Part shown: positions 2,341 through 34,402 of the stretch, one piece after another | Numbering within the stretch: the stretch's first letter is position 1 | Layout of the letters: every line of letters begins with the position of its first letter | Program-made: the position numbers and the translations under genes | Notes under the pieces: model-generated | The model's database searches: none | What the model saw: the letters and a program-made list of their open reading frames with translations, nothing else | What the model was told of the DNA's origin: nothing | From: Entrophospora sp. SA101 | Lineage: Eukaryota > Glomeromycota > Glomeromycetes > Entrophosporales > Entrophosporaceae | Assembly (NCBI GenBank): GCA_958430865.1 | Contig: CAUDNR010004096.1 | Location: forward strand, 34,129 to 68,803 | Length of the DNA: 34,675 nucleotides | Reading direction: 5' to 3'

Positions 2341-2497
2341 ACCGCAATAAAATTTTGCATATCAAATCGTTTTTCAGTGTTCCCAGGTTGTCCAATAGCA
2401 GTTTCCTACATGTGTGTAATATATATTTAATGGTTATGTTATTGTCTTATAATCATTTTAATGATAATAATGAATGCTCACACAAAACAAATATATC

Positions 2498-3012: not shown

Positions 3013-3246
3013 GTTTATTATTATTAATTAATAAATTTTTTTTTAAATAATGTTTTTTCATGGCGATCAATGATTTTTACGCCGTAGCTGTGGAATTATC
3101 ATTGTTCCCATGGAATAACTGATTTGTCCCATGGAGACTAACGTCCCGTGATTTAAAAAGTTTATTTTATTGTTTATTTTTTGTACAATAAAAATTTTAC
3201 TCATCTTTCATCCTTTTCTTTTATCACAACCTATTTTTACTAACTA

Positions 3247-3534
3247 ATGCGAGTGCTCTTCGTCTTCCCAAAAAGTTCCAGAGGCTCCAAAATCTACTTT
3301 GCTTCAAATCGGAATGGCTGATTCTATTTCTCAAGATACTTTAATATCATTTAAATTCAAGTTAAACTTAATTTTTATCGTCAAAAAGCTCTAATAACAA
3401 AAAACCAACATCTTGCTATTATGAATATTTTAACTCACGTCATAGAACCATCAAGTTTGCCTGAATTTTCTTTGGATGATATTCAAAAGAAATTTTCTAT
3501 TTTTAATTGTCATTTTAATAATGTGATTTTTTAA
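3247..3534 (+). pseudogene. Decayed gene fragment or terminal exon, unknown protein
   Basis: A stretch with coding character in two frames. The first part (about 3247-3357) encodes a Ser/Pro-rich peptide; the second (about 3357-3534) encodes a peptide containing RQKALITKNQHLAIMNILTH and ends at TAA (3532-3534). A single frame change near 3355-3360 would join them. Just upstream, TACTAAC (about 3238), the canonical branch-point word, is followed by AG, so this may be a 3' terminal exon. I do not recognise the family. Mirrored at 32016-32303 (-). Confidence 0.35.
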
Positions 3535-4167
3535 ATCTTAATAATTAATAATGTATATATGCCAGCAATTCTTTGTAGCATGGATAATAAAGTGAAATAA
3601 ATTATATTTCCACGGTTTTCAAAATATCACTATAAAGTTGATTTATGAACCAATTTATTCTTTGCGTTTATTATCACTTTTATATACGAAAGTATTAATT
3701 AAAATCATTTAGCCATTATTATAGTATTTCTATATTCTTTAGAATCCTACATCTAAATTTATTATAAAAGCTTACTACAAATATCCTCCTATTATTATGT
3801 TTATATCGATAATATAAAGTGATACATTTATTGTTGAAGACAGCATCTACTACATTGTAGATAATGATATTTCGTTCTCCTTCAAGTTCTTACTAGTCGG
3901 TACTTTCGTAAGGTTGAATTTGGATTTTCGATGATTACTTTCATATTTAATACATTTGTGTTATGAAATTTATATTTTTTTTTTACATGAAGAATGGAAA
4001 AAACAATTAAAACAATCAAAGCAAAAATGACACCATAATATAATATCGATAGAGCGTATTCAACAAAAGTCGCCTAAAATAAATATAATAAATAGCTGCA
4101 GATTTATAATTACATCCTTCCACAATTTACTACTGAAAATTTTCGATAATCATTTCCATATTTATAT
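3535..4167. other. AT-rich intergenic DNA of the left arm
   Basis: No gene, RNA or strong repeat recognised. Mirrored at 31383-32015. Confidence 0.5.
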
Positions 4168-4411
4168 ATACATATGTAAACTCGATAAGTCGGTCATGTG
4201 GGGGTGGGCTCATATGACCGATTTATCGAGTAAACCGACTTATCAAATTAAATTACTTAAATATTAAGAAAATGAGGTGAAAATTTTGGCCGACTTATCG
4301 AGTAACCGACTTATCGAGTGACCGACCTATCGAGTAACCGACTTATCGAGTGACCGACTTATCGAGTGACCGACTTATCGAGTGACCGACTTATCGAGTT
4401 TACATATGTAT
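4168..4411. mobile_element. Small palindromic element with 29-bp inverted ends
   Basis: The 29 bp at 4168-4196 and 4383-4411 are perfect inverted copies (ATACATATGTAAACTCGATA... in the first). Inside, a 16-bp word, CCGACTTATCGAGTGA and close variants, repeats seven times head to tail at 4290-4402; two more units lie near 4215-4250, and a reverse unit is part of the left end. No ORF. This looks like a non-autonomous inverted-repeat element whose end unit has expanded into a satellite. The flanks allow a TA target duplication, which I cannot prove. Another partial unit lies at about 4534. The mirrored copy is 31139-31382, and a diverged short relative is at 30375-30445. Confidence 0.7.
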
Positions 4412-5044
4412 ACGGGCACGGTAATCAGACCTATCAAAAGATCAAAACACGCGATTTTACAAAAATAAAAGAATCGTAAACCCAACAAGTTGGTCCGCTC
4501 AATCTTTTAATGCTTGATAATGATAAATAAATGGCCGACTTATCAAAAAATCATCTTTATTATTCACTTTTACAAGTATTCGAATCGTAAGTTTATTTTT
4601 ATTTTTTTCTAAATCTTCAAATTTATAAATACATTTGATTCATGTGATGGTTCTTCTTTGCAAAGATCTTTTATTTAGTTTATTAAATCCGTAAACAATT
4701 TCCCCTTGTATATGTAAATTTTTTAAATAAATAAATAAATAGATTTTTTGCTCAACGCAACGAATAAAATATGTGGTTGGCTAATGTTGATGCTCCGAAC
4801 AAATATACAGATACCTCGCGTTTGAGTGTAACATGTAAAGCCAAATCATACATAAACGCCATTTTGGCACTACGTGACTCGACCTTCGAATTCGAATGCA
4901 ATGTAAAAAGCAAATCCAATATTTTTTGCATTTTTGGGTGATAGCGGGTTTATTTATATGTTTTGTGGTAATTTATTAGACTACCCAATCATCTGGCCAT
5001 GAAATAGTCTATTTTATTAAAAATTGCACCATTGATCATGAATA

Positions 5045-12700: not shown

Positions 12701-13116
12701 GATACACAATGCCACTTTGGGGGTTTTGAGACAAGCCCCCGTGGTGTTGTTGTGTGGATTTAAACGATTCTGCTATATATTTTTTTTAGCTTTAAATAAA
12801 TCTAACCAAAAAACGATTCCTTTCCATTTTCCGCGTACCTTGAATTACGATTGGTTTATATTTTCGTCGTACTTTTAATCGGATTTTGGGTATAAAAAAT
12901 GATTTCTTATCGGAAAACAGCCTACGGGAGGCTATAGAATCCTTAATTATCCTATTATCTTTAAACCGGTTTTGTTATCTATAAAGCCTAAAAGATATGC
13001 ATTTATAAATATAACCAAAAAATCTAGCCAAGAAATTTTTCGTAAAATTAATAGGTTTTTTAAGCTCTAAAGCGTTTTTATCCTCTTCTCATAAGGTAGA
13101 AAATTAGGACGGAAAT
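12701..13116. other. Left end of element region, non-coding
   Basis: It starts with a strong hairpin, GGGGG...CCCCC with inner TTG/CAA pairs (12719-12740), and has a second small one, AGCCT-ACGGG-AGGCT (about 12928-12942). The phrase TAACCAAAA occurs three times (about 12799, 13013 and 13117). No gene is seen. Confidence 0.5.
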
Positions 13117-13362
13117 CTAACCAAAATTTTCTTTAACTATATTAGCTTTTTCGCGTAATTTGTTAACATATCTAATCATATAAAATCCGCGTTTATGTAA
13201 ACCACATCTACCACAAGCAGAAGCAGTTGGTTTACCACAATCAGTGCAAGGAATACGTTTTTTACTATTATAATGATGTCGACAACCTTCAGATCTAATA
13301 CAAGGTCTATTACAAGTTTCTCCAGAATTGTGAAGATAATTACATGTATATCCAGCTTTCAT
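13117..13362 (-). CDS. 81-aa Cys/His-rich zinc-binding protein
   Basis: A short intact ORF with two Cys/His clusters. The first is C7, C17, C21, C27 with H29/H30 (G.TCNRPC...GCRHH); the second is C39-x2-C42, C49-x2-C52 and H56. The C-terminal 25 residues are basic and helical. The spacing suggests two small zinc-binding units, perhaps DNA- or RNA-binding or structural. Similar G.-C-..-C..H fingers occur in proteins of large DNA viruses and elements, but that is a pattern impression. It is divergent from the zinc-finger gene at 13495 across a 132-bp intergenic region. Function unknown. Confidence 0.7.
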   Translation of the reverse strand: MKAGYTCNYLHNSGETCNRPCIRSEGCRHHYNSKKRIPCTDCGKPTASACGRCGLHKRGFYMIRYVNKLREKANIVKENFG

Positions 13363-13494
13363 TTTGAAATAAGCTTATACATATAATAATATATTTTTTA
13401 TATGTTTAATAAAAATTAACGAATAAATATTTTAAATTGAACAAAAATATACGCATATATATAAAAAGAACGTTTCAGTTAGATTTATTATACC
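13363..13494. promoter_or_regulatory. Bidirectional promoter region
   Basis: 132 bp between two divergent starts. A TATA-like run, TATATATAAAAAG, lies about 13456-13468, some 30 bases before the ATG at 13495, whose context is ACCATGG. Confidence 0.5.
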
Positions 13495-14418
13495 ATGGCA
13501 AAAAAAATTAGAAGCGATAAAAAAAGTACAATTTGTGAACGTTGTGGATATACATGTGCAACCCCACAAAAACTTCTACAACATTTAAACCGAAAGAACC
13601 CATGCAGACCACAAAATTCTACACCTAACCCCGAAATAATTACCAATTCAAAGCCCATTCAGGTTTTACAACCCTGTGAGATAAAAAATCTTAATGATAG
13701 AAGGTCAGGTGAGTCTGTTAAGCAATGGGGGTCAAGATTACGAAAAAGATATAAAAAAGTAACTTATCAGGATTATGAACAACCAAAAACTTTAGCAGAA
13801 TGTAAACGTCTTTATAATGATTTAATTCAAATCGATCCAAATGCATTTAGTGGTACTCCAGAACATGAAGAAAACGATTTATTCTTACAAGAACAAAATG
13901 CTAACAATAATAGCGAAGCTGAATCTTTAGATAAACAGTCTGAAATAGCAATGCTAGAACGGTTAAATCTACTAAATGATGAATTTCAACGTCTAAGTAA
14001 TATTACAGAAGAAAATGGAGAAAATATAATATTTCGAGAACAACAGTTAGGCCCTGCTCTTAAAAGACGGGCTGTAGCCGTGCATAATGCCAAAGTACCT
14101 AGATTTAATCCAAATAATGGGAGCGATATAAGAAAAATGCTAGAGAGCCAAAGAAAACCATTACGGGATTTACTTGAAAAAGAATTTGATAAGCGTGGAC
14201 AATTCAAATTTGCATTATGCTCACTTTTAAAATTTATAGTAGATAAAAAACCAGGAGATAATGAGGAGGTAGACAAGAAAAATTCTACAAGAAGGGATTG
14301 GCTAAGAAATAAGCAAATTATAGTATATAATCGGGCTGAAATAGATGATTATTTAAGTAATGCTTTCGAACAAATTATATATCAAGTTGAGGAAAGAGGC
14401 GGAAAATCTAATTCTTAA
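13495..14418 (+). CDS. Zinc-finger protein; possible detached PolB N-terminal module
   Basis: A 307-aa intact ORF with a strong start context (ACCATGG). Residues about 13-37 form a C2HC finger: C-x2-C, twelve residues, H, then C (CERCGYTC...QHLNRKNPC). A basic linker and a Gln/Asn/Glu-rich middle follow. The C-terminal 90 residues (about 215-300; LRDLLEKEFDKRGQFKF..., EIDDYLSNAFEQIIYQVEE) resemble, from memory, the segment that precedes the catalytic part of Maverick-type polymerase polyproteins, which normally continues into a GSGW/GSNW motif. Here the protein stops instead inside a 22-bp-type repeat, so it may be a truncated polymerase N-terminal half or a separate DNA-binding protein. The stop overlaps that of the convergent integrase. 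Confidence 0.7.
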   Translation: MAKKIRSDKKSTICERCGYTCATPQKLLQHLNRKNPCRPQNSTPNPEIITNSKPIQVLQPCEIKNLNDRRSGESVKQWGSRLRKRYKKVTYQDYEQPKTLAECKRLYNDLIQIDPNAFSGTPEHEENDLFLQEQNANNNSEAESLDKQSEIAMLERLNLLNDEFQRLSNITEENGENIIFREQQLGPALKRRAVAVHNAKVPRFNPNNGSDIRKMLESQRKPLRDLLEKEFDKRGQFKFALCSLLKFIVDKKPGDNEEVDKKNSTRRDWLRNKQIIVYNRAEIDDYLSNAFEQIIYQVEERGGKSNS

Positions 14419-14437
14419 CCATTGCTAGCTCTGCTAA
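14415..14437 (-). repeat. 22-bp symmetric repeat, copy at convergent gene ends
   Basis: On the minus strand: TTAGC-AGA-GCTAGC-AATG-GTTAA, one base longer than the consensus. It supplies the overlapping stop codons of the zinc-finger gene (14416-14418) and the integrase (complement of 14415-14417), and encodes the integrase tail SRASNG. Confidence 0.85.
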
Positions 14438-15473
14438 GAATATACTTTGGAGGTAATTCAGTATCTAGAGGAACGATTTGCAATTCCTCTCTTACAAATG
14501 AGCGTTTTGGTCCATTATAAAGTTTATAGAGTACTGGTTGACCTTCTTTTATTAAATAAGAATCGATTGTAAAGGTTTCAGGACTCCAATTCATATCAGT
14601 TGCACGTTTTTTTCCACCTTCCAATTCTCCAGGTTCCAAAAGATGTCAAACTTCAGTATAGCTAGGCAATAGAATTTCATCATAGCCAATTGGTCTATTA
14701 TATTTTGTGGATGATTTAGCATATACATGTTTCTTTTTTCGAGCTTCAGCAGGGGACATATTAATCAAAATGGTTACAGAATTATCTAGCTTATTAAGAA
14801 AGATATAAAGATCCTTTACCCAAGCTCAACAACGTTTATTTAAAGATAATCTTAATTCTACAGCATCTTGAATATAAAATGCCCACTTTTGTAAAGTCAG
14901 ATTAAATCTTTCAACAATACCCATACTTCTTTTAGATTTAGCTAACAAATGTTTAACGCCATGATTTATCAACATTGCATGGCATTCTCCAAGAAATTCT
15001 ACTCCGCCATCAGTTTGCAACTTTTTTGGCCAGGAAAGTGGACATTTTTGAGAATTAAAAAGATATTTTAACCCTTTAGCAACACTAGTAGAATCGCGAT
15101 CAGTTAAAGGATAAGTCCATTTAGTACGACTAGCAATATCTACACAGTTAAGAGCATATTTATATATTTTTTTACCGATTTTATCATGAGGCATATAGCA
15201 CAAATCAGCTTGTATAACTTCCATTGGTACAGTAATGTTTATAAATGATGCATATGGAATAAAATTTGGCCGGGGTTTATGAACCTGAAAAATAGCCTGT
15301 TTATTTAACCAATTTTTTATATCAGTTAACGAAAAATTATAACCAGCATTTTTACATGCATTATACATTTTTTCAGCTGTTCTATAATAACCTTCAGGTT
15401 TATAGTAAATCTCACGCAAAATAATATTACGTTCTACAGAAGGATCAATTGATATTATAGGTACTAATGCCAT
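14415..15473 (-). pseudogene. rve-type integrase with two in-frame TGA codons
   Basis: A 353-codon frame from ATG at 15473. Residues about 13-65 are an N-terminal helical domain (GYYRTAEKMYNACKNAGYNF). The DDE core has D90 (IQADLCY), D155 (LQTDGGVEF) and E188 (GIVERFNLTL), with 32 residues between the last two. That short spacing, with the xVERFNxTL end, fits Maverick/Polinton-type integrases better than retroviral ones. The C-terminal part has GGKKRATDMNWSP and RSFVREEL. Two TGA codons interrupt it, at codon 216 (14826-14828, after RC, before AWV) and codon 276 (14646-14648, after EV, before HLLEPGE). Both fall where I recall Arg in relatives, consistent with CGA to TGA. All catalytic residues precede the first stop. 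Probably inactive unless the TGAs are read through. Confidence 0.85.
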
Positions 15474-17458
15474 CTTTAGAAGAACAAATCAACAAATTAG
15501 AAAAAATACTATCTAATAATGAGGTATATATTAATTATTTAGAAAAAGAAATCTCAAATCGGGATGAAGAATTGGAGGAGATAGAAATTCTTCGTAAGAA
15601 TAACATGAGCTTACAAAAGCGTCTAAAAAAAGCATTGTTAGATATTAACTATAAAGAAGAAACATTGGTTATACTAGATAATAAAATATATGATCTTCAA
15701 GAAGAAATAAATACTTTAAAAAATAGAATCCAAAATATAACGTCCAGAAAAAAATCAACAATGGATGAAATCCAAACTCTAGGCGAATCAATTAGAAATG
15801 CATTCATAAATATCAATAGTATATTTCAAAGAACACCAGACATACCTAGATCAATTATTGATAGAGAAATTACTGATATAAGAAATGCTGTAACTAGACT
15901 CCAAGGAATTTCAAACTTTGAAAAAAATCGAGCAAATACTGCAGAAGCTAAAATTAATCAAGATACCCAAACTATTTTAAGATTAAATTCTACAGTACAA
16001 AAATCCAATGATGAAATGAGGTTAATGACAATGGCATACTATAATGAAAAGGAAGAACGTCAGCATTGGTATTTCTCATACAAAGATAAGCATAGGAGGA
16101 TTGTTGAATTAGTAAGAGAAAAATTTGCTACCCAATTATTATTACGCACTAAAAGACAAAAATTGCAACAAAAATTAAATACTTGTCAGAATGATTTATT
16201 ACTTAGCGATATTCAACTTGATAATAAATGGGGCAAATGGAAAAATCGATCCAGAAATTATGAGCAAATAATTATTAATCAAAATCAAAATATTTTAAAT
16301 TTGCAAAATAATATAGCAAATCAACCAAACATGGCTACAATTCATGAAATATATTTAATATTACAATCGCCACTTAGTCAAATTCCCAATTATATAGGAA
16401 AAGAACCTCCAGATGAGTATTATCAAAAAATTATAAATGTTATTGATTCTATAAATACTGTAACTATGGCTGCCAATAATGCTAATGCAAATACTTTTAC
16501 TGATGCTCATATATGCGATATCTTAAAAGGTAAAATGGGCGAAAAGTTTTCTCCTGTACCAGCTAATGATCAATATACTGTAGGCAATCCTGCTATTAAT
16601 TCTCCAGCAACTTTTCGAGTTTGGCTTCGTCATAAATATCGAGAAGTAACATCAGGAAATTCAGAATTGGCTTTACAATCATTGATGCAAGAAAAATTTA
16701 ATCCATTAGATACTCCAGATACTTATGAAACTAGAATCCGAAAAATTATAGTTGGTTTTCAAGCTGATATGGTTATACCAGCATTATATACCCATCTTCC
16801 TCCCGATCTTCGTAGTACTGTAAAAATGTATATGTCAATAAGAGGTGGCAATACAACTATAGATAATTTCTTTGCAGACTTAAAAAAATGCTGGATTGAA
16901 CGGCAAGCTGGAAATAATAGTATACAACTGACATTAATAAATCAACAACAAACCAATAATGCATTAGATATATTAGCTAATTTAGCACAACGTTTGGGTT
17001 ATTCAGGGGATTTAACTGATTATAATCAAATGCAAAAATATATTGAAAATGATCTTTATAGAAATTATGGAAGGCAAATTCATAATATGAAAAATGAACC
17101 ATTTGAACCGCAAAGAAAAATATATGCTACAAAACAACCCGCTTCTAGAAAGGTAATTATAACAAATAAAAATTCAAGACAATGCTCAATTTGTAAAAAA
17201 GTTGGACATACAAAAAATAATTGCCCCAAACTTAAAAGAGTTAGAAGAGTTAATAATATTTCTCAATATGAAAATAACGAAAATGATGAAAATGAAGAAT
17301 ATATAGAATATGTAGAATATGATGAGGAAGAAATAATAGATGCGGATAATGAAGAAGTAATTTTAGAAGATGATGAAAATGAATATATCGATTTTGAACC
17401 GCAAGAAACAAACTGTTTTAATATAAAAAAAAAAGAGGCGTTTCTAGGATTCCTATAA
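15467..17458 (+). CDS. Gag-like protein, coiled coil plus zinc knuckle
   Basis: 663 aa in an intact frame. Residues 1 to about 280 are charged, heptad-rich coiled coil with few hydrophobic clusters. From M289 (MATIHEIYLIL) to about 500 is a helical region (YIGKEPPDEYYQKI, FRVWLRHKYREVTSGNSELA, FFADLKKCWIER) that matches the layout of retrotransposon Gag/capsid proteins. A CCHC zinc knuckle follows, C573-x2-C576-x4-H581-x4-C586, typical of nucleic-acid-binding Gag. The tail (600-655) is very acidic. Inferred role: particle-forming structural protein binding element nucleic acid. Its ATG (15467-15469) lies within seven bases of the divergent integrase ATG, leaving no 5' spacer. The frame ends just after a ten-A run (17425-17434) from which the protease frame opens at -1. 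I recall closely similar proteins being numerous in Rhizophagus; unverified. Confidence 0.85.
   Translation: MPSLEEQINKLEKILSNNEVYINYLEKEISNRDEELEEIEILRKNNMSLQKRLKKALLDINYKEETLVILDNKIYDLQEEINTLKNRIQNITSRKKSTMDEIQTLGESIRNAFININSIFQRTPDIPRSIIDREITDIRNAVTRLQGISNFEKNRANTAEAKINQDTQTILRLNSTVQKSNDEMRLMTMAYYNEKEERQHWYFSYKDKHRRIVELVREKFATQLLLRTKRQKLQQKLNTCQNDLLLSDIQLDNKWGKWKNRSRNYEQIIINQNQNILNLQNNIANQPNMATIHEIYLILQSPLSQIPNYIGKEPPDEYYQKIINVIDSINTVTMAANNANANTFTDAHICDILKGKMGEKFSPVPANDQYTVGNPAINSPATFRVWLRHKYREVTSGNSELALQSLMQEKFNPLDTPDTYETRIRKIIVGFQADMVIPALYTHLPPDLRSTVKMYMSIRGGNTTIDNFFADLKKCWIERQAGNNSIQLTLINQQQTNNALDILANLAQRLGYSGDLTDYNQMQKYIENDLYRNYGRQIHNMKNEPFEPQRKIYATKQPASRKVIITNKNSRQCSICKKVGHTKNNCPKLKRVRRVNNISQYENNENDENEEYIEYVEYDEEEIIDADNEEVILEDDENEYIDFEPQETNCFNIKKKEAFLGFL
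17425..17434 (+). promoter_or_regulatory. Candidate -1 frameshift site between Gag and protease
   Basis: Ten A's preceded by T. In the Gag frame this contains the slippery heptamer A-AAA-AAA twice. The protease frame lies at -1 relative to Gag and is open from 17422 on, with no stop before the protease ATG at 17491, so a -1 slip here would yield a Gag-Pro fusion while the Gag frame stops at 17456-17458. I did not identify a downstream pseudoknot. Confidence 0.55.
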
Positions 17459-17490
17459 AAAACAAAGCTATCAAGTCAACTAAGAAAAAA

Positions 17491-18360
17491 ATGATAGATG
17501 AAAATCAAGTATTCTTAGAATCGATTAAATATATAATATCATCATTAATTCCACATTGTCCAAAAGAAATTCTTTCAGAGTTATATGCATTTATTAGAAA
17601 ATTATTTCCAGAAATGGAAAACACATTCCACTCATATTATACAAAAAATTATTCTAGTAAAGAAAGAGATATGGTATGGAAAAATCTTATTAAGAAATAT
17701 CAATTTATTTTAGTACCATTGATTTATATTATTAATAGTCATAAAGAAAGTCAAAGTCAGGAATCTATTACTGATAACCGTTCTTTAAACCATGCAATAA
17801 AATTATATCAAGAAGCACAATTAATTCGAGATTGGCCTAATCCTTTAGAAATTAATTTCCTGCAAATAAAAGAACCAAACAACTATGCAACTATTCCATA
17901 TAAAATATATGATTTAGAAATACCTCATGCTTTACTTGATACGGGTTCTGATGGATCTCATCTTTCTGATAATATTGCAGATTATATTGAAAAATATTTT
18001 GGTTTAAAAATGGATAGAAAAAAGGCTTATAGGCTTTCAGGAGCCGTTGGAGAAAAACAATCTATAGGGACATTTCATGATATTCCAATAACTATAGGTA
18101 TAGGAAATGATACTGTAAATATTTCAGATGAATTTTCAGTTCTTCCAACGGAAAAAGATCATAATGGTAAAGATATATCATTATTTATTCTTGGTACCAG
18201 ATGGCAACATCGTGCTGGATGGGAACCTATTGTAAAAGGCGAATTTAAAGCTTCTTGCAATGGAAAAACCATTACTATTCCACTTTCCGTTCATAAACCT
18301 CAGCAAAATGTTTTTAGCAAAGCCAGCATCAATAATGTAGAAAAAAAAAAAATTAATTGA
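17491..18360 (+). CDS. Retropepsin-type aspartic protease (Pro)
   Basis: 289 aa from ATG 17491, or longer if made as a Gag-Pro fusion. The catalytic motif is D150-T-G-S (ALLDTGSDGSHLSD), followed by the flap-like region (YRLSGAVGEKQSIGTF) and the usual distal ILGTRW motif near residue 233. One DTG per chain means it would act as a homodimer, as retroelement proteases do, presumably cleaving the Gag-like protein. Residues 1 to about 110 are a helical extension I do not recognise (PHCPKEILSELYAFIRKLFP). The frame ends at a 12-A run (18341-18352), beyond which a zinc-finger frame is open in another register. Near the end, residues FSKASINN are encoded by a weak match to the 22-bp repeat (about 18313-18335). 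No reverse transcriptase follows. Confidence 0.85.
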   Translation: MIDENQVFLESIKYIISSLIPHCPKEILSELYAFIRKLFPEMENTFHSYYTKNYSSKERDMVWKNLIKKYQFILVPLIYIINSHKESQSQESITDNRSLNHAIKLYQEAQLIRDWPNPLEINFLQIKEPNNYATIPYKIYDLEIPHALLDTGSDGSHLSDNIADYIEKYFGLKMDRKKAYRLSGAVGEKQSIGTFHDIPITIGIGNDTVNISDEFSVLPTEKDHNGKDISLFILGTRWQHRAGWEPIVKGEFKASCNGKTITIPLSVHKPQQNVFSKASINNVEKKKIN

Positions 18361-18592
18361 TAGAACATGTCAATATTGTAATCAGTCTTTCAAATATCCT
18401 TGTAGATTAAAACCGCATTTAAAAAACTGTAAGCATAGAAAAAATGGCCTTGCCAGCTCTGCTGAAAATAACAGTGTTTCTACAGTTAATGAAAATGTTT
18501 TAACAGCAAATAACAGTGTTTCAACAAAAAATAATAGCAGAGCTAGCATGGCTAACGTTCTTACAGTTCCTATTCGATTATCATTAGCATAA
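18341..18592 (+). CDS. C2HC zinc-finger frame after the protease, no own ATG
   Basis: A frame open from just after a TAG (18338-18340) to TAA at 18590-18592 that encodes a finger, C-x2-C, twelve residues, H-x3-C (RTCQYCNQSF...HLKNC), then a Ser/Asn-rich tail. There is no ATG before the finger. It sits +1 relative to the protease; reading 11 rather than 12 A's would join it in frame to the protease. It may be a C-terminal domain reached by slippage, a gene split by a one-base insertion, or a sequencing error in the A run. The tail contains one clear and one weak copy of the 22-bp repeat, encoding SRASMAN and LASSAEN. Confidence 0.55.
   Translation, partial: KKKKLIDRTCQYCNQSFKYPCRLKPHLKNCKHRKNGLASSAENNSVSTVNENVLTANNSVSTKNNSRASMANVLTVPIRLSLA
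18445..18465 (-). repeat. 22-bp symmetric repeat, diverged copy
   Basis: On the minus strand: TCAGC-AGA-GCTGGC-AAG-GCCA. Several substitutions from consensus, but the pattern is retained. It lies in the zinc-finger frame. Confidence 0.55.
18534..18555 (+). repeat. 22-bp symmetric repeat, in coding frame
   Basis: ATAGC-AGA-GCTAGC-ATG-GCTAA. Read in the zinc-finger frame as SRASMAN. Confidence 0.85.
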
Positions 18593-18598
18593 TTGTAC

Positions 18599-19525
18599 TT
18601 AGCCATGTAGATTTTTTCTAAACGTAAATTTTTTTCGATTTTCCAGATTAGTTTCTGAATTATAGTACCTATTTACCCATAAACCTTTTTCAGCATAGGA
18701 AAAATAACTTTCTGGCTCAATTGTTCCATCCCTACCGCCATGTTGATTGAAAGATATAATGTGGTCATTGAGATTGATTATTTTTTGGTCCTTAGCATCT
18801 ATAATATCTTCTAATTGCTGACATTTATTTCCTAACTTATTAATTTTTTCCAAAGATGATTTGTTGCTTTCCTTTAATGCTACTATATAATTTTTATATC
18901 TTTTATTATCATCTGATAATTTGGCGATTTTTTTATCCTTTTCTTCTAATGTTTTACTATAATTCTTGGTATTTTGTGTCTCCATCGCAGAAACTTTGGA
19001 TTCATATTGATCTTCTATTTCTTGTTTCAAAATATATATATTTTTATTATTCTCATCAATAAGTTTATCGTATTCGTTTTTTACATTACTAATCTCAGTA
19101 TCTTTTTCATTGGTTAATTTTTGACGTTCAGCTTCAAGATATATCAAATTTTCTTGCTTTAGCCTATTAGTTAATTTCTGATTAAATATCTTTATATCTG
19201 CTGAAGAAGCTACATTATTACCAGTACAAAGTAAAGAAGATTCCGATTTTTGTGCATCCTGCTTATCTATTAATGTTACAGTATTGGATAATTTTGGCGG
19301 AGCCTGCTCTGATGAGTATTTTATACTTCGACGTTGTCTTTCTTTTTTCTTCTTATATTTTTCAACCTCATGTTTTAGAAAATTTTCAATTTCTGAGTTT
19401 ATATTACCTACCTCAACCTCTGTTAAAGGATTATTTTTTCGTCTTGTAAGACGTTTCCAAGATTCTTGTATTATTGATGGCGGTAATTGCTCAACCAAGT
19501 TTGAATAATTTTTGTGGAATTCCAT
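18599..19525 (-). CDS. Coiled-coil protein of unknown function
   Basis: 308 aa, intact. Residues 1-75 are basic with a KKKKERQRRS stretch that could bind nucleic acid or serve as a nuclear signal. From about 115 to 255 there is a long coiled coil (heptads with many Glu/Lys/Asn; LEEKDKKIAKLSDDNKRYKN). The C-terminal 45 residues (ESYFSYAEKGLWVNRYYNSE, then a basic tail) are globular-looking. No enzyme motif. It converges with the protease and finger frames and lies beyond an 11-bp repeat array that could hold its promoter. Residues NNVASSAD (about 19195) echo the repeat-derived peptides elsewhere. It could be a structural protein of the element. Confidence 0.75.
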   Translation of the reverse strand: MEFHKNYSNLVEQLPPSIIQESWKRLTRRKNNPLTEVEVGNINSEIENFLKHEVEKYKKKKERQRRSIKYSSEQAPPKLSNTVTLIDKQDAQKSESSLLCTGNNVASSADIKIFNQKLTNRLKQENLIYLEAERQKLTNEKDTEISNVKNEYDKLIDENNKNIYILKQEIEDQYESKVSAMETQNTKNYSKTLEEKDKKIAKLSDDNKRYKNYIVALKESNKSSLEKINKLGNKCQQLEDIIDAKDQKIINLNDHIISFNQHGGRDGTIEPESYFSYAEKGLWVNRYYNSETNLENRKKFTFRKNLHG

Positions 19526-19685
19526 AGAATATTCCTATAAAAGAATTCCAAAGAATTCCAAATAAAAAAATATTTATATTAATCATGTATAAATATCGTT
19601 CTTATAAAATTTTAATTATCTAAAAAAAGTATACTTTTAGTGATTGACATCCATAAATTAATTTCATACATAATTAATCTTATAC

Positions 19686-19762
19686 ATGAAGTATACATGA
19701 AGTATACATGAAGTATACATGAAGTATACATGAAGTATACATGAAGTACACATGAAGTATAT
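19686..19762 (+). repeat. Seven tandem 11-bp units
   Basis: ATGAAGTATAC repeated seven times; the last two units differ by one or two bases. The 11-bp period puts every unit on nearly the same face of the helix. Confidence 0.92.
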
Positions 19763-19817
19763 TCATAAACCGTTAATATTATATTAATTATATTATGTAA
19801 ACACAGTTTAAGTACAC

Positions 19818-19849
19818 TTGAAGTATACTTGAAGTATACTTGATGTAAC
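19818..19849 (+). repeat. Related array, TTGAAGTATAC units
   Basis: Two exact units of TTGAAGTATAC and a third degenerate one, 55 bases after the first array. It differs from that array only at the first base of the unit. Confidence 0.8.
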
Positions 19850-19942
19850 GTTGATAATTGTTATGTTGTACGATATAATTAATATTTTTTTCGTAATACA
19901 TATAATTAATATTTTGGACGAATTTATTTTCATTTAATAAAA

Positions 19943-20233
19943 ATGCCTATACCAATCAAAACTCATAATCCCGAAGCCTCGAATTTACATACTAATATTA
20001 GTAAAAGTATGCAAAATAACGTTTCTAGCCTTATTTCATCATTTATGTATAAAAAAATCAGAATTTCTTTACGTGTATTGTTAGCTATAGTTAAGCCGGA
20101 AATTCATAAACTAATTATAGATTCAATGATGATTAATAATAATAGCGGAGCTAGCATGGCTAAAACAGTTTATAATATATCTAAAGTAGATTCGTCTGAT
20201 GAAGATGAAGATGAAGTTGAAGATGAAGTTTAA
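19943..20233 (+). CDS. Small ORF with acidic tail, function unknown
   Basis: 96 aa. The middle (residues about 25-62) is hydrophobic-basic and helical (RISLRVLLAIVKPEIHKLII); the end is a run of Asp/Glu/Val. Residues SGASMAK come from a 22-bp repeat copy. After its TAA (20231-20233) the same frame stays open for 40 more codons to TAA at 20354-20356, again passing through repeat variants (FSGAFSITK, ISRANSS), so it may be a longer gene with a nonsense change. No known domain. Confidence 0.45.
   Translation: MPIPIKTHNPEASNLHTNISKSMQNNVSSLISSFMYKKIRISLRVLLAIVKPEIHKLIIDSMMINNNSGASMAKTVYNISKVDSSDEDEDEVEDEV
20142..20163 (+). repeat. 22-bp symmetric repeat, in coding frame
   Basis: ATAGC-GGA-GCTAGC-ATG-GCTAA inside the acidic ORF, read as SGASMAK. 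Confidence 0.88.
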
Positions 20234-20258
20234 CCAAAAGTATGTAAAAAAATTATTT

Positions 20259-20284
20259 TTAGCGGAGCCTTTAGTATAACTAAA
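20259..20284 (+). repeat. 22-bp repeat variant with altered centre
   Basis: TTAGC-GGA-GC at the left and ACTAAA at the right, with the central GCTAGC replaced by CTTTAGTATA. Confidence 0.5.
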
Positions 20285-20320
20285 GAAATTCCGATGTGTA
20301 CAACCCATATAATAATTAAT

Positions 20321-20335
20321 ATTAGCAGGGCTAAT
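20321..20335 (+). repeat. Half-size form of the symmetric repeat
   Basis: A-TTAGC-AGG-GCTAA-T: the outer arms with one triplet between, lacking the central GCTAGC. Confidence 0.5.
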
Positions 20336-20380
20336 TCCTCATATACAATAAAATAAAGTTATATGTAAATGTGGTTAAGA

Positions 20381-20468
20381 TATGCTAGAGTTGAGCTAGA
20401 GACGTGCTAGAATTTTTTCTATATATTTATATGTAAAATGATACACTCATGCTAGAGTCGTGCTAAAT
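20381..20468 (+). repeat. Cluster of GCTAGA words
   Basis: TATGCTAGAG, GAGCTAGAG, GTGCTAGAA, CATGCTAGAG and GTGCTAAA within 88 bases. Possibly decayed relatives of the GCTAGC repeat core. No gene here. Confidence 0.45.
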
Positions 20469-20470
20469 TT

Positions 20471-20952
20471 TTAGTAAATCATATTAGTTAAAACATTTCT
20501 AATTACTGCTTCTTCTTCTTCTACTACTTCTATAAAATCGAATTCATCATCATTATAGATAAATGGAATAACGTCCCCATCATACAATGTAAAAGTTTTA
20601 TTTTCAAAATCTACATTTTCCACATTTGCCTGAAACCATGGCCAACCCAATATCAGTGCGTTTTTATGACCAGGTTCCAATGCAATTTTTTGCTCAGGTT
20701 CATCAGTTACAAAAATTTCATTAACTTCTACTTGTTTCCATTTATTATCTTTGGTTTATGGATCATACCTAATATATTAAACATACTTGGTTTTCCTTCT
20801 GGTTCTGTATAGGAAGTATCGATTTTCAATTTTTTAGCGGAGCTAGCATGGCTAAAATGTCTTGCTAAGTCCATATCTACAATATTATAATTAGTACAGG
20901 AGCAACATCCAACCTCAACTGGTATATTATTAATTTTACAGGGTAAATTCAT
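20471..20952 (-). pseudogene. Degenerate retropepsin-like gene, frameshifted
   Basis: Two frames make one product. 20952-20728 starts MNLPCKINNIPVEV; a change of frame near 20750 leads into 20680-20471, which carries ALILGWPWFQANVE, the ILGxPW motif that follows the flap in retropepsin-like proteins. Where the catalytic DTG is expected (after the IPVEV strand) the sequence reads CCSCT, so no catalytic Asp is visible. The C terminus is acidic. A 22-bp repeat (20834-20855) has inserted residues HASSAK. By position it is co-oriented with the polymerase and could once have been a second protease or a Gag-Pol linker. Probably non-functional. Confidence 0.55.
20834..20855 (+). repeat. 22-bp symmetric repeat, perfect consensus
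   Basis: TTAGC-GGA-GCTAGC-ATG-GCTAA. Lies in the retropepsin-like gene, which reads it on the opposite strand as SHASSAK. Confidence 0.9.
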
Positions 20953-21029
20953 TATGGCGTTTTTATTAAAATAGTATATTTATATTAGAAAAAAATTTAT
21001 AATTTGTTTCAAGTAATATCTTTAGAAAT

Positions 21030-21051
21030 TTACCGGAGTTAACATGGCTAT
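21030..21051 (+). repeat. 22-bp symmetric repeat, diverged copy
   Basis: TTACC-GGA-GTTAAC-ATG-GCTAT. The centre GTTAAC is still self-complementary although its sequence has changed from GCTAGC. Confidence 0.7.
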
Positions 21052-21139
21052 TTTTTCCTGGAGTGGTACTTTTAGTCAACCGACAACATGTGTGGACGAT
21101 AATCATGTTTGTTACATTTTGGAAGATGATCTGCTATAA

Positions 21140-21161
21140 TTAGCGGAGCTAGCATGGCTAA
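21140..21161 (+). repeat. 22-bp symmetric repeat, perfect consensus
   Basis: TTAGC-GGA-GCTAGC-ATG-GCTAA in non-coding DNA just past the polymerase 3' end. Confidence 0.9.
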
Positions 21162-21234
21162 ATAACGTCTCAAAATATATTATATCTAAAAAAAATTGTT
21201 ATAATATGATTTCCAAATAATTATGTTATATAAA

Positions 21235-23776
21235 TTATTGATATTCGGGTTTGAGTGTTAATTTCATAGCCCTTTTTTCTGCTTCTTCAGGAATTACCCC
21301 TGATGCAACAAACTTTTTATATGCACGAATTCTCCAATGCCCATAAGGTAAAGTTCGGATTCCGTCAGATAAAATCCAGCGCTTATTGTCATAAGGATTC
21401 AGCCCTATTTTGTTAACGCGTTCTAAATAAATTTGATGATCATAGCTACGAAGCCCATACATGTCGTGCCTAGTAATTTTTCGAGTTTTTAAGCATTCTA
21501 GGAACTTGTCATGACGAAGCTCCCTTTTTACTACTGATTTTTTAACGCCCTTGGCCTTTTGTATGCCATGCTTTTTCTGCCAACCCTCTTCTTCTAACTC
21601 TTTTTCGAAATCCGCCTCTGTTTTTGGCGTTTTGGGATCATGACCAACTGGAAGAACTGAATACATTTTCGGCTTTAAGCATACAGCTTCACTAATTGGG
21701 ATTCCCTTACACTCATCTTTCATTAGAAATAAGTCTCCGGAATTATTAAGATCAAATAGGTCTGGCCTCTCTGCCCGGTCTTTATAAACGTCTTCAGTTT
21801 CAATCCACATAATTAGTGAATCGGTATCAGTATAAAGAAGGCGGGCCTTTTCCCCATAACGGGGTTTAATATAGCCATACCAAAAGTTATACATCATAGC
21901 CTTACTAATATCGAGAATTGCTTGTCCTACAAACATCGGCTTATTTAGAGTAATCTGACTTTTTAGCATATGGATGGCTGTAATTCCGCCTTCGAAAGCC
22001 TTAAAACCTACATATAAAGGAGATGAGGTAAGACGTTTAAGTTTTTTGTCCTCTTCAGGTTTAAGTAATTCTACTCTCATATGCTTTCGGACATTTTCCA
22101 TTTGCTTACCAAAGACGGCATTATTTTTTAATTTATAGTACATAACTCCGAATTCGTCCCCAGATGCTTTAGCAATTTTTCTTTTGCGAATATTTTCCTC
22201 TATATAGGGCTTCATCCATGGGGATTGATGGAATTTTAGAGCTTCATGAATTTTTGTAACCTTTATTCCAAGATTTATATAAAGTTGAAGGGCTCTGTAA
22301 TGAACCACATAATTTTTCTTAGGCAGGAGCGTCTGAAGTAGCTTTTCTCCTAATACATATTTTCCTCCGCCAATTTCCGAATCATTTACCAAGTCTTCAT
22401 TATATGGGCTAAGCCAGTTTTTAGGTACAACGCCTTTTTCAGGTGCTAATGGGTAATCATTGAATAAATCGTGCAAGTTTAACGGAACTTCCATATCAAC
22501 TTCAAGTAAATAGCCCTCTTCAGCATCAATCGGAATTTCTAAAATATTAGGAATTTCCTCAGGGGCTACCTTACCTAAAATTTCTGTTGGTAAATATTGT
22601 ATCATGGCGCCAGAATATAATGCATTCATATCCTCATACATAACCCATGAATTCGGCTTGCTTTCATCATAATCAGGACATTGCGGGTTATTAGCTTTGG
22701 CATAACGTTGACTAACCATAGACATGCCCCCACGAATGGCTCTCTCTACTAACATATATTGATCTAGGTCTGTCAGAAGTTTTATTTCGGCTCCGCTACT
22801 TTTGTATAAAGAATCATTAAACATACCAGGAGCCAAAACGTAATGGGATGGGTCTAAGCCATCATCTTTCAAACACATAATGGTATAATTCATAAAAACG
22901 TCCGCAAGTAGGAGTACATCTGTTTCAAGATATAAATCATGATATTCGCCAAAAGTTTTCATTTCGAATTTTTGCCAGACTTCTTGGGCATAGGTATAGT
23001 CTGCCTTACTAATGTTTTGCTGGTTAAGTAGAGAATAGAAATCTTTTCTGCGCGGTAAAGCCGTTTTTTTGAATTTATCCCAAGAATTGGTCCAGTCATA
23101 TGGAAAAACCCCTTTTCGAAATAGAAATTTGATTTGCTCTAATGAGTAGCCTTTATCGGCAAAATGCTTTTTAGTTAGGGGGAACTTTTCTAGATTGCCG
23201 TTCATACACTCAACAAGCTTATCAAGCCCCATAGACATATGCTGAAAGCTATCTAAAAAGCGCAATTGACCAACATCCATAGCCTTATATTTGCCTATGT
23301 TTTCCGGAATGCATTTAAGCTTATTGGAAGTAAATCTGCCGGCAACTTCTATAAGCAAGTGAGAATCGTAGCCTCGGAAATTATGACAGATAAGTGGTAC
23401 TTTGGTTTTGAAAGCGCCCATTTGTAGTTTTTTATTGCAATTGCTATGAGCTGGGCCTCTATATTTTCCATTAATATGGCAATGGTCCCGAACTTTTAAT
23501 AATCCTTGATCTAACATTTGACTATTACAATACATACATTTGTATGTTTCTTTGAATATTCCATTATCTGGAATACTAGGCTGTTGATACCATTTTGGAC
23601 CAATTATTTCGTTTTTTTGCTTACATCCTTGATGTGATGCTCCTTTATAATTTCCGGTATTAGGGCAACAAACCATTGTTTTGAGTATATTTTGATTTGG
23701 AAATTGCCATATTGTATCATCCCATGGGACTAAAATGTCATCTGCAGATTCCTTAATGTCATCATTATCATCTTCA
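21235..23776 (-). CDS. Protein-primed-type B-family DNA polymerase, 5' end in gap
   Basis: About 846 visible residues, uninterrupted. Counting the gap codons, an endonuclease VII-like finger spans residues 85-118: C85-x2-C88, then VRDHCHINGKYRG and H115-x2-C118. A weaker echo of its second half is at 46-59 (GNYKGASHQGCKQK). Exonuclease motif II is HNFRGYDSHL (136-145), and a YxxxD-type motif III lies in YLETDVLLLAD. Polymerase motifs are A, D387 in DMNALYSG; B, K553 in KLKNNAVFG; and C, YTDTDS with D655 and D657. Exonuclease motif I is not visible and should lie upstream, in or beyond the gap. The family (DNA_pol_B_2) copies linear DNA from a terminal protein in Mavericks/Polintons and linear plasmids. 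Base composition is clearly less AT-rich than the neighbouring genes, suggesting a different or younger origin. Confidence 0.92.
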
Positions 23777-23786
23777 NNNNNNNNNN
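23777..23786. other. Assembly gap of 10 N
   Basis: Ten N in a row interrupt the 5' part of the polymerase gene. The true distance and the linkage of left and right parts are uncertain, which affects every long-range statement made here. Confidence 1.
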
Positions 23787-23880
23787 TCAAACAATAGAAT
23801 CAACCGTAAGTCAGCGAGTAGGCTGTGTGTTGAGCTATAAATAACCTATTAAATAGGAAACTCGGATTGCACGCTCGCAC
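23787..23880. other. Unassigned sequence between gap and block 2
   Basis: 94 bp with no similarity to the F-box upstream regions, which start about 23881. Contains a near-palindrome, CCTATTAAATAGG. It could be the right end of the element. Confidence 0.4.
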
Positions 23881-30505: not shown

Positions 30506-31138
30506 TATTCATGATCAATGGTGCAATTTTTAATAAAATAGACTATTTCATGGCCAGATGATTGGGTAGTCTAATAAATTACCACAAAACATATAAATAA
30601 ACCCGCTATCACCCAAAAATGCAAAAAATATTGGATTTGCTTTTTACATTGCATTCGAATTCGAAGGTCGAGTCACGTAGTGCCAAAATGGCGTTTATGT
30701 ATGATTTGGCTTTACATGTTACACTCAAACGCGAGGTATCTGTATATTTGTTCGGAGCATCAACATTAGCCAACCACATATTTTATTCGTTGCGTTGAGC
30801 AAAAAATCTATTTATTTATTTATTTAAAAAATTTACATATACAAGGGGAAATTGTTTACGGATTTAATAAACTAAATAAAAGATCTTTGCAAAGAAGAAC
30901 CATCACATGAATCAAATGTATTTATAAATTTGAAGATTTAGAAAAAAATAAAAATAAACTTACGATTCGAATACTTGTAAAAGTGAATAATAAAGATGAT
31001 TTTTTGATAAGTCGGCCATTTATTTATCATTATCAAGCATTAAAAGATTGAGCGGACCAACTTGTTGGGTTTACGATTCTTTTATTTTTGTAAAATCGCG
31101 TGTTTTGATCTTTTGATAGGTCTGATTACCGTGCCCGT

Positions 31139-31382
31139 ATACATATGTAAACTCGATAAGTCGGTCACTCGATAAGTCGGTCACTCGATAAGTCGGTCAC
31201 TCGATAAGTCGGTTACTCGATAGGTCGGTCACTCGATAAGTCGGTTACTCGATAAGTCGGCCAAAATTTTCACCTCATTTTCTTAATATTTAAGTAATTT
31301 AATTTGATAAGTCGGTTTACTCGATAAATCGGTCATATGAGCCCACCCCCACATGACCGACTTATCGAGTTTACATATGTAT
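31139..31382. mobile_element. Palindromic element, right-arm copy
   Basis: Mirror of 4168-4411 with the same 29-bp inverted ends and seven head-to-tail 16-bp units, here reading CTCGATAAGTCGGTCA. It arose with the arm, not by separate insertion. Confidence 0.7.
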
Positions 31383-32015
31383 ATATAAATATGGAAATGA
31401 TTATCGAAAATTTTCAGTAGTAAATTGTGGAAGGATGTAATTATAAATCTGCAGCTATTTATTATATTTATTTTAGGCGACTTTTGTTGAATACGCTCTA
31501 TCGATATTATATTATGGTGTCATTTTTGCTTTGATTGTTTTAATTGTTTTTTCCATTCTTCATGTAAAAAAAAAATATAAATTTCATAACACAAATGTAT
31601 TAAATATGAAAGTAATCATCGAAAATCCAAATTCAACCTTACGAAAGTACCGACTAGTAAGAACTTGAAGGAGAACGAAATATCATTATCTACAATGTAG
31701 TAGATGCTGTCTTCAACAATAAATGTATCACTTTATATTATCGATATAAACATAATAATAGGAGGATATTTGTAGTAAGCTTTTATAATAAATTTAGATG
31801 TAGGATTCTAAAGAATATAGAAATACTATAATAATGGCTAAATGATTTTAATTAATACTTTCGTATATAAAAGTGATAATAAACGCAAAGAATAAATTGG
31901 TTCATAAATCAACTTTATAGTGATATTTTGAAAACCGTGGAAATATAATTTATTTCACTTTATTATCCATGCTACAAAGAATTGCTGGCATATATACATT
32001 ATTAATTATTAAGAT

Positions 32016-32303
32016 TTAAAAAATCACATTATTAAAATGACAATTAAAAATAGAAAATTTCTTTTGAATATCATCCAAAGAAAATTCAGGCAAACTTGAT
32101 GGTTCTATGACGTGAGTTAAAATATTCATAATAGCAAGATGTTGGTTTTTTGTTATTAGAGCTTTTTGACGATAAAAATTAAGTTTAACTTGAATTTAAA
32201 TGATATTAAAGTATCTTGAGAAATAGAATCAGCCATTCCGATTTGAAGCAAAGTAGATTTTGGAGCCTCTGGAACTTTTTGGGAAGACGAAGAGCACTCG
32301 CAT
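32016..32303 (-). pseudogene. Gene fragment, right-arm copy of 3247-3534
   Basis: Same two-frame coding-like stretch, ending in IQKKFSIFNCHFNNVIF, unknown family. Identical to the left copy where compared. Confidence 0.35.
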
Positions 32304-33439
32304 TAGTTAGTAAAAATAGGTTGTGATAAAAGAAAAGGATGAAAGATGAGTAAAATTTTTATTGTACAAAAAATAAACAATAAAATAAACTTTTTAAATC
32401 ACGGGACGTTAGTCTCCATGGGACAAATCAGTTATTCCATGGGAACAATGATAATTCCACAGCTACGGCGTAAAAATCATTGATCGCCATGAAAAAACAT
32501 TATTTAAAAAAAAATTTATTAATTAATAATAATAAACATTATAATATTATTATTAAATACGTTCCAACAGGCAACGCGTGCCAGATCATATTCTTCATTT
32601 GGTACATGGCTCTTCAGCAAATCCTGGCCATCCCAGCAAGTCTTCTTTCACAGTGTTACCCAACAAATAGCAGGTTAGTTTCCTCACTGGACACGCTTAA
32701 TAAAAGGTAGGAAGGATATCTATACTTTGCAGAATCGAGGGTGGAGACAGTAAGGAGAAGCTTGTGAAAGCACTCTCCTTCAATAAGGCAATAAGGAGGT
32801 TGAAAATAAGATTCCTTGTCACGCGTGATAATAAAAAAACGACTGGTGTATTTGCTAATAATTATAATATTATTATTAAAATATATTTCAACAGATAACG
32901 CGTGCCAAATCCTATATCAGTAAGTTACTTCACTGGGAACACACTTGATAAAAGGTAGGATATCTATACTTTTAAGTACATTCTGCAGAATGCAGTAAGG
33001 AGAAGCTTATTCAAGTACTCTCCTTGGCACGTGTGATAATAAACAAACAATTGATATATTTGTTTTGTGTGAGCATTCATTATTATCATTAAAATGATTA
33101 TAAGACAATAACATAACCATTAAATATATATTACACACATGTAGGAAACTGCTATTGGACAACCTGGGAACACTGAAAAACGATTTGATATGCAAAATTT
33201 TATTGCGGTTCAAATATTACAATTATTCACATCTTCCTCGTGAAAAAGGCTAATCTGACCTGATCCCCCGATGATATAATAATGGGATTAAACTTCGGGG
33301 AGGGGTAACGACGCTCCGAAGTTTATTAATCACGTTGTTTAAAGCTTCTTGCTTGTCTGAAGCCTTCCAACTTGTTCAATTGCCTCACCTGTAGAAAATT
33401 AAAATTCTATAGTTATTGAGGTTTGCAATCGCATGACGC

Positions 33440-33718
33440 TTGCTTGTTTGTGAAAGGAAAAATTTATTAAATCTGACACCCATAATCAGGGTTGGCGTTG
33501 GCTGTAATCCAAATTCACCATCACCATATGCTGACAATAATCCACACGTAATATTAAGTGTGGATCAACAACAGCATCACCATACAACCTTCACTCCGAC
33601 CTCACCATCCCAATCTCAACCACCAATCCAATCAAATTCATCACCAATGCAACCCCATCATCAAGAACACCAAACCACAACACATTTTGAACATGTTCAA
33701 TGCCAACCCTGTTTATAA
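33440..33718 (+). CDS. Possible His/Gln/Ser/Pro-rich exon, right-arm copy
   Basis: Mirror of 1832-2110. Open without an ATG at its 5' end; low-complexity peptide, no domain. An overlapping frame (33558-33755) is open as well, so the frame is not certain. Confidence 0.3.
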   Translation: MLVCERKNLLNLTPIIRVGVGCNPNSPSPYADNNPHVILSVDQQQHHHTTFTPTSPSQSQPPIQSNSSPMQPHHQEHQTTTHFEHVQCQPCL

Positions 33719-34402
33719 TAAACATCAGATTTATTCTTTTGGAAATAATTTTTAGAAAAGCTCTACAATTTATGATTGTAGGCAATTGAAAAGCGCACAC
33801 GCAAGAAAAGGGAACCAAGTAGAGAAAAAGGATTTGTTTATCCCCAAACTCTACCAAATTCCTCGTCCTCCACCCGCCAGGAAGGACATCATTATGTGGC
33901 TTTTTTCAAATCACTGCATGGTCTTGGTATTATCATTACTCGGGTGATGCAATTTTATGTTGTACCAAAAATGTATTTTTGATTCAACCAAGAGAAAAAT
34001 ATTTTATATAACATATTGAAAAAAATAAATGGAATACAGCAATATATGTGCTATATATAATAATGGGCTTAGCAAAATCAGCGGGGAAAGAAGATCCTGT
34101 TGAACTTGACTCTGGTTGTTACTAAACATATGGACTAAATGGTTTAGTTGGTTTAGCCAAGTGCTCATTTGAGTCACGAGATAAGTAATTTTTTTATTGT
34201 AAATATTTAATTTTATTTAAAAAGTATACTTTTGGAAAAATTACAAACTCTTATAATTAATAACTTTAATACTAAAAATTTGTCTAATTTGTCTCAAATA
34301 AAATTTAAAAACAATTATTTGAATCTTTTTTGAAAAAGGAAACTAGAGTAATGACGACAGGTGGCGGGCGATAACCACCACCAACATCCTTAAAACACTT
34401 AC

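Follow-up and report, generated by a model that had tools for sequence, protein, structure and literature searches.

The stretch analysed here, 34,675 nt of contig C1591 in the 101-Mb assembly of the arbuscular mycorrhizal (AM) fungus Entrophospora sp. SA101 (hereafter the window), contains an insert that encodes an integrase, a Gag-like protein, a retropepsin (Pro), a coiled-coil open reading frame (ORF) and a Polinton-type family B DNA polymerase (PolB). Comparison with related copies elsewhere in the genome showed that, judged by gene content, this is a recurrent architecture in which a DNA polymerase and an integrase are combined with a retroelement-type Gag-protease module, with neither a reverse transcriptase (RT) nor space for a jelly-roll major capsid gene (group 1). 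The probable explanation is a self-synthesising DNA element of the Polinton kind in which a Gag-protease module of retroelement type has taken the place of the virion genes. The case rests on the related copies; the window copy alone would have left the matter unsettled.

Group 1 copies elsewhere in the genome

The same gene set in the same order as in the window was found at five loci, representing at least four insertion sites. One full-length copy, on contig C1437 (12,450 bp, 67043-79492), is enclosed by inverted terminal repeats beginning AGTAGGG, an AG start being typical of Polinton terminal repeats. The matching pieces of the two repeats are 81-100% identical and extend about 0.66 kb inward on the left and about 0.54 kb on the right. 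The main frames of this copy are open and consist of a cysteine-rich ORF adjoining the left terminal repeat, a 155-aa frame, an intact 354-aa integrase, a 1072-aa Gag-Pro read as a single continuous ORF, a 214-aa coiled coil and a 1636-aa C2H2-PolB. Because these ORFs occupy about 10.6 kb of the 12,450 bp, little space remains for a further gene, and among the listed ORFs of at least 75 aa no unassigned one was long enough for a major capsid protein; this negative concerns the major capsid, and a small minor capsid is still possible among the small ORFs, which had no structure search. Likewise, the scanned ORFs and ORF pieces of this copy gave no Pfam match to an Ulp1/adenain-type cysteine protease, and a retropepsin, as part of Gag-Pro, stands in place of such an enzyme.

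The copy on C235 has the same genes, including an intact 354-aa integrase, and a different left flank; its contig ends inside the repeat. At C761 and C1457, a Gag-Pro-coiled-coil block of the window type lies beside a third type of PolB, with related terminal repeats at the end. One terminal-repeat end is present at C235, C761 and C1668 and, with 3 mismatches, at C1457, while at C205 a PolB has Pro and coiled-coil matches nearby in a different arrangement. PF03175 scored above cut-off in C1591, C235, C1437, C1668 and C1887 and not at C1875; the C1437 PolB reached 40.7 bits in the genome search, and hmmscan of its pieces returned endonuclease VII only.

The window copy

Homology to other F-box spacers delimits the insert, the left flank reaching up to 12713 and the right flank starting at 23879. 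The features of the window copy are listed below by position and strand.

12714-23878, no strand: whole element copy as assembled, an insert of about 11.2 kb between tandem F-box genes (flank homology)
13117-13374, minus: cysteine-rich small ORF (73.8% nucleotide identity to C1437 67917-68078, 74.1% to C235)
13495-14418, plus: 307-aa C2H2 ORF, similar to the N-terminal region of PolB and relocated to the left end (blastp)
14415-15473, minus: DDE (rve) integrase (PF00665, E 1e-9)
15467-17458, plus: Gag, with N-terminal coiled coil, capsid core and CCHC knuckle
16283-16966, plus: Gag capsid (CA) core, the part modelled structurally
17183-17224, plus: CCHC zinc knuckle, aa 573-586 of Gag (PF00098, E 0.029, below cut-off)
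17422-18360, plus: retropepsin ORF in the -1 frame relative to Gag, first ATG at 17491, DTG at about 17938 (aa 150)
17425-17434, plus: A10 run where Gag and Pro overlap (17422-17458), a candidate site of -1 frameshifting
18341-18592, plus: small C2H2 ORF (PF12756, E 0.02, below cut-off)
18599-19525, minus: coiled-coil protein (weak Pfam matches only; 27 genome matches)
20471-20979, minus: two overlapping ORF pieces, by eye like a degraded second retropepsin (unconfirmed, no Pfam match)
21235-23776, minus: Polinton-type family B DNA polymerase, truncated N-terminally by the gap (PF03175, E 3.2e-7, above cut-off)
about 21817-21828, minus: DTDS motif of PolB
about 23413-23550, minus: endonuclease VII finger of PolB (PF02945, E 8.1e-4, below cut-off)
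23777-23786, no strand: assembly gap of 10 N; no element terminus is visible in the window copy

This copy is decayed, rearranged and mosaic. Its PolB is split in two (ORF 13495-14418 and 21235-23776) and runs into the gap, and rearrangement is indicated because the first of these ORFs resembles the N-terminal part of PolB in other copies (blastp E 2e-12 and 20% over 281 aa against the C1457 N-terminus; 58% over 55 aa against C235). The integrase carries two in-frame stop codons (14826-14828 and 14646-14648). Compared with PDB, it gave one weak match, 7z0h (2.9e-5), which we take to be the Ty1 integrase, and PolB matched no PDB sequence. When six window proteins were compared with PHROGs, PolB alone matched, to polymerase and endonuclease VII families. 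An earlier sequence-only reading of this DNA had recognized a CCHC-knuckle Gag, a DTG protease, a DDE integrase, a B-family polymerase with an endonuclease VII finger and no RT motif in the frames read, and each of these calls stood, the last as judged by RVT_1.

A 22-bp repeat occurs in four copies within 18534-21161 at up to 3 mismatches (0 expected), starting at 18534, 20142, 20834 and 21140, and a fifth copy with a one-base insertion was read by eye at about 14419 (14.42 kb). The repeat is a near-palindrome, and three of its copies coincide with, or directly follow, the 3' ends of the integrase, coiled-coil and PolB genes. The earlier reading had taken it as slightly favouring a common history; since a similar peptide reading occurs inside the ATPase ORF of a group 2 element on C1399 (described below), we regard it as weak evidence and set it aside. 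Elsewhere in the window, an 11-bp tandem array of 7.4 copies (19681-19761) lies just upstream of the coiled-coil gene, and two inverted arms of 4,170 bp (875-5044 and 30506-34675) match at 100%; the right arm reaches the contig end, and the pair reflects either an assembly artefact or an inverted duplication of recent date.

Retroelement character of Gag and Pro

The structure model of the Gag core resembles retroviral, Copia and PEG10 capsids, and its matches include Arc, PEG10, MOAP1 and PNMA2; a capsid profile searched against PDB sequences gave nothing relevant. The retropepsin alone produced a weak Pfam match (E 0.06) and a structure model of low confidence (pLDDT 38), and a profile of 17 sequences found DDI1 (8e-7) and a Ty3 Gag-Pol chain (5e-4) among solved structures. 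The arrangement of the two genes appears to be a retroviral-style frameshift layout. In 26 of the 30 loci with both ORFs (33 entries minus 3 repeats of C1591, C761 and C1457), Pro is in the -1 frame relative to Gag, with an overlap of 7-55 nt and an A8-A10 run, and A-runs of this kind are otherwise scarce in these ORFs (12 in 77,226 nt). The remaining four loci (C1894, C950, C1924 and C204) lack an overlap, two of them being +1. At C1437 and C235, an A9 run is present and the Gag-Pro frame is continuous, reflecting either a real fusion or a homopolymer error.

Genome-wide association of the module

Dropping second pieces and weak fragments left 51 of 66 Gag, 57 of 66 integrase, 20 of 27 coiled-coil, 19 of 41 PolB, 51 of 92 ATPase, 60 of 71 RVT_1 and 26 of 69 group 2 polymerase rows, along with 43 Pro rows (one C1095 row was omitted from the comparison with the group 2 polymerase). 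At 28 of the 51 Gag loci, integrase and Pro lie in compact order. Close Gag-integrase pairs are on opposite strands in 32 of 33 cases, and close Gag-Pro pairs share a strand in 35 of 36. The N-terminal 70 or so aa of the coiled-coil protein recur beside the cassette at other loci. A six-frame search of the whole genome with the RT profile RVT_1 listed 71 matches, a lower bound; none of these fell in the window, and around the 51 Gag loci none was found at a distance of 10 kb or less. No Gag-Pro-integrase set was encountered inside an RT-containing element, the outcome that would have spoken for ordinary retroelements. Long terminal direct repeats around Gag-Pro were likewise absent from 10-26 kb of the window, the direct repeats there being F-box duplicates and short repeats. 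Polinton-type PolB was found near five of the 51 Gag loci, and PolB and ATPase together near none.

The same cassette beside a second polymerase

In a second set of elements (group 2), read over about 14 kb each at C638 (84.8-98.7 kb) and C1399 (37.5-52 kb), the integrase-Gag-Pro cassette adjoins an A32-type ATPase and a DNA polymerase convergent with Pro. The ATPase matches PF04665 with an E of 5.8e-14 at C1399 and of 3.9e-4, below cut-off, at C638, and has no match among PDB sequences. The C1399 polymerase (1224 aa, PF00136 at 1.5e-48) represents a type that aligns over about 980 residues (E 1e-233) with PDB 8ywg, an entry listed as 'DNA polymerase' that is presumably the African swine fever virus enzyme. 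Of the 26 places of this polymerase, 10 are no more than 10 kb from Pro, always convergent and at a spacing of 2.1-5.9 kb; 23 of the 51 Gag loci, none of them in group 1, have the ATPase at up to the same distance. The presence of an A32-type ATPase beside the cassette suggests that DNA may be the packaged cargo in group 2. Gag dN/dS in nine group 2 pairs is 0.19-0.39, a range as under purifying selection. No inverted repeats were found between the ends of the group 2 sequences compared, so these elements may extend further and could carry a capsid gene outside them. An F-box/LRR-like ORF recognized by eye (C638 86307-87452) lies between ATPase and integrase and is either a captured host gene or a later insertion. 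Adjoining the integrase is an ORF with weak DUF2726 similarity at C1399 (40156-40821), and at C638 its counterpart is seemingly fused to the integrase (87470-89143), judged by C-terminal residues.

Relation to known elements and their distribution

The group 1 elements share with Polintons/Mavericks a family B polymerase of the organellar/viral type, an rve integrase and terminal inverted repeats, and family membership suggests that the window PolB may be protein-primed. They differ in carrying Gag and retropepsin, in having no ORF for a double jelly-roll capsid and no Ulp1 protease that we could find, and in that no FtsK/A32-type packaging ATPase was found near group 1. With Ty3/Copia long terminal repeat (LTR) retroelements and retroviruses (Ortervirales), they share the capsid-fold resemblance, the CCHC knuckle, the DDE integrase, a DTG/DSG retropepsin in some copies and a Gag/Pro overlap in the -1 frame at an A-run; unlike these, they have inverted termini and a DNA polymerase, neither RVT_1 nor LTRs were found with them, and the integrase is a separate gene on the opposite strand. 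Arc, PEG10, MOAP1 and PNMA2 likewise have a Gag capsid domain outside a retroelement, but these are host genes, whereas the Gag described here belongs to a mobile element present in multiple copies. To our knowledge, Gag and retropepsin otherwise occur in mobile elements that use reverse transcription, and polymerases of Polinton type in elements with jelly-roll capsids; this family breaks both pairing rules.

Searches with the single Gag sequence returned 53 relatives and with the alignment 49, each among about 8,000 scored candidates. Those with names come from the AM fungi Entrophospora, Rhizophagus, Diversispora, Paraglomus, Acaulospora and Cetraspora, the rest being 'hypothetical' or unnamed. 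Among IMG/VR viral contigs, there was no relative of Gag, of the capsid alignment or of the group 2 ATPase. PolB, by comparison, had 6,556 relatives at E <= 0.001 among 7,988 scored, and the best 120 of these include an Entrophospora sp. SA101 protein 100% identical to the window PolB and named animal proteins from Mytilus, Dendronephthya, Elysia, Gigantopelta and Argopecten at 43-45% identity, animals that carry Polintons.

In the published record, no major capsid gene was detected in the Glomus intraradices (Rhizophagus) Polinton (PMC7805220), nine Polintons lack capsid, protease and ATPase genes together (PMC4028283), and Maverick is among the recently expanded elements of Rhizophagus irregularis (PMC8647823). 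The group 2 polymerase, through its alignment with 8ywg, resembles the asfarvirus-like DNA polymerase genes of AM fungi (PMC10640383, PMC5294986); Rhizophagus DNA polymerase sequences have been placed within Asfarviridae (PMC5294986), and asfarvirus-like polB genes, reported at 15-33 copies per Rhizophagus genome with no capsid or A32 gene, have been taken as traces of infection by asfarvirus-like viruses (PMC10640383), whereas the gene found here lies close to Pro at the places noted above. The texts of PMC4028283, PMC8647823, PMC10328495, PMC11071308 and PMC10120064, searched for 'gag', yielded no Gag-bearing Polinton, and searches of openly licensed PMC papers showed no description of this gene combination.

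Weighing of alternatives

The sequence-only reading had proposed either a lineage in which a Gag-type particle serves a self-synthesising DNA transposon or two nested remnants. We favour the element lineage because the gene order recurs, the C1437 termini enclose open frames, no RVT_1 lies near and a second polymerase is found with the same cassette; gene set, order and termini thus bear out the lineage, while the service of a particle, that is, Gag packaging of element DNA, is something we infer. Nested remnants, in the form of an RT-less LTR retroelement or retrovirus-derived fragment inserted in or beside a Polinton, would fit the decay of the window copy and the difference in between-copy identity of the PolB and Gag blocks. 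Nevertheless, order and strands are identical at the at least four insertion sites, the frames are open inside a single pair of inverted repeats, neither LTRs around Gag-Pro (10-26 kb of the window) nor a nearby RVT_1 was found, and the cassette recurs with a second polymerase. Since the C1437 and C235 copies already contradict it, the nested-insertion reading was rejected as extremely improbable. It is also improbable that the loci are not compact mobile elements but pieces of endogenous giant viruses of the asfarvirus-like kind that took up retroelement genes, even though the group 2 PolB matches an asfarvirus-like polymerase and a 1.5-Mb asfarvirus-like region has been published for Rhizophagus irregularis (PMC10640383): the window PolB is of Polinton type, integrase and Pro are compactly ordered at more than half of the Gag loci (28/51), and group 1 spans just 12.45 kb between terminal repeats. 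A different objection is that Gag-Pro belongs to the DNA element but has been repurposed, for example as an RNA- or DNA-binding intracellular shell like Arc or PEG10, and does not package element DNA. The lack of an A32 ATPase within 10 kb of group 1, the loss of Ser/Thr-Gly of the catalytic triad in 11 of 17 proteases and fold matches that include Arc, PEG10, MOAP1 and PNMA2 agree with this idea; we nevertheless consider it rather unlikely, because Gag and Pro are kept together in the frameshift layout in 26 of 30 loci and group 2 joins the cassette to an A32-type ATPase.

Several observations weigh against the Polinton-kind element reading itself. Of 430 Foldseek matches to the capsid-core model, none reached E <= 0.001, and TM-scores were about 0.24-0.29 at an rmsd of 13-18 A. 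Among helical folds a middling Z arises by chance, and no Pfam gag family matches any of 24 capsid sequences. The D-[ST]-G triad is retained in only 6 of the 17 proteases. RNA structure 3' of the A-run showed no common signal across 26 loci (z -2.4 to +2.3, with C660 and C1736 below -2), and slippage could therefore be ribosomal or transcriptional. Gag dN/dS between the window and C1437 is 0.49 at a dS of 1.2, higher than in group 2; the values among the window, C761 and C1457 (0.6-1.2) come from 6-35 changes, too few to be informative. Both termini are present only in C1437, where no target-site duplication, 6 bp long in Polintons, was found (GTTTCT versus GAAATT); its flanks may be recombined. 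C761 and C1437 are 99.8% identical over 1,217 bp, a match that continues about 566 bp beyond the terminus, so only four separate insertion sites are certain among the five loci. Gag blocks 95-97% alike adjoin PolBs only about 43% identical, which points to module exchange and mosaic elements, or partly to mis-assembly. The start of the terminal repeat has 12 genome matches, 6 of them from the described copies; the other six, at 0-3 mismatches (C1077:20098, C362:25591, C1437:31848, C468:5306, C1453:38032 and C2004:101863), are possibly solo ends or other families. On C1668 (29780-36038), a PolB and a terminal repeat occur on a contig with no Gag match, with an N gap about 0.65 kb past PolB. More generally, 14 of the 19 PolB places have no Gag within 10 kb, many being fragments or members of a subfamily about 40% identical; PolB elements consistently without Gag would have argued for separate histories, yet five of the 19 carry the full gene set. 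Finally, none of the five group 1 loci has an A32 ATPase within 10 kb (searched with the group 2 ATPase), and five of the 23 Gag loci near that ATPase (C795, C1020 and three on C896) are 21-25% identical matches to the coiled-coil part alone.

Proposed cycle and implications

If the Polinton-kind reading is correct, the C2H2/endonuclease VII PolB would start at the terminal inverted repeats and make a linear double-stranded DNA copy of the element. Gag would be translated, and slippage on the A8-A10 run would allow a fraction of the product to continue in the -1 frame as Gag-Pro, which in two copies is one open frame. Gag would then assemble through its capsid domain, with the zinc knuckle binding nucleic acid and the retropepsin trimming Gag, and the particle could enclose or escort element DNA as it moves through the mycelium or from one nucleus or hypha to another, before the rve integrase inserts it. 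Reverse transcription would be unnecessary throughout this scheme. A DNA-carrying particle would also mean that double-stranded DNA can enter a Gag shell in the absence of RT.

The Gag may be the missing capsid of the long-known fungal Polintons, which would offer an answer to the question, left open in PMC7805220, of which capsid, if any, the Glomus/Rhizophagus Polinton has. In the same way, group 2 elements may explain the published orphan asfarvirus-like polB genes of AM fungi, providing a second explanation for the copies found per Rhizophagus genome without capsid or A32 (PMC10640383). More tentatively, and with a little less confidence than doubt, we suggest that AM fungi could harbour DNA viruses or virus-like elements of a class not yet described, in which double-stranded DNA is packaged by a capsid of retrovirus type. 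Integrase-Gag-Pro would be their stable core, with either a Polinton or an asfarvirus-like PolB as an exchangeable replication enzyme, and in one branch an A32-type motor would fill the Gag shell. If true, this would represent a capsid swap between two virus realms, and would mean that virion modules can cross realms.

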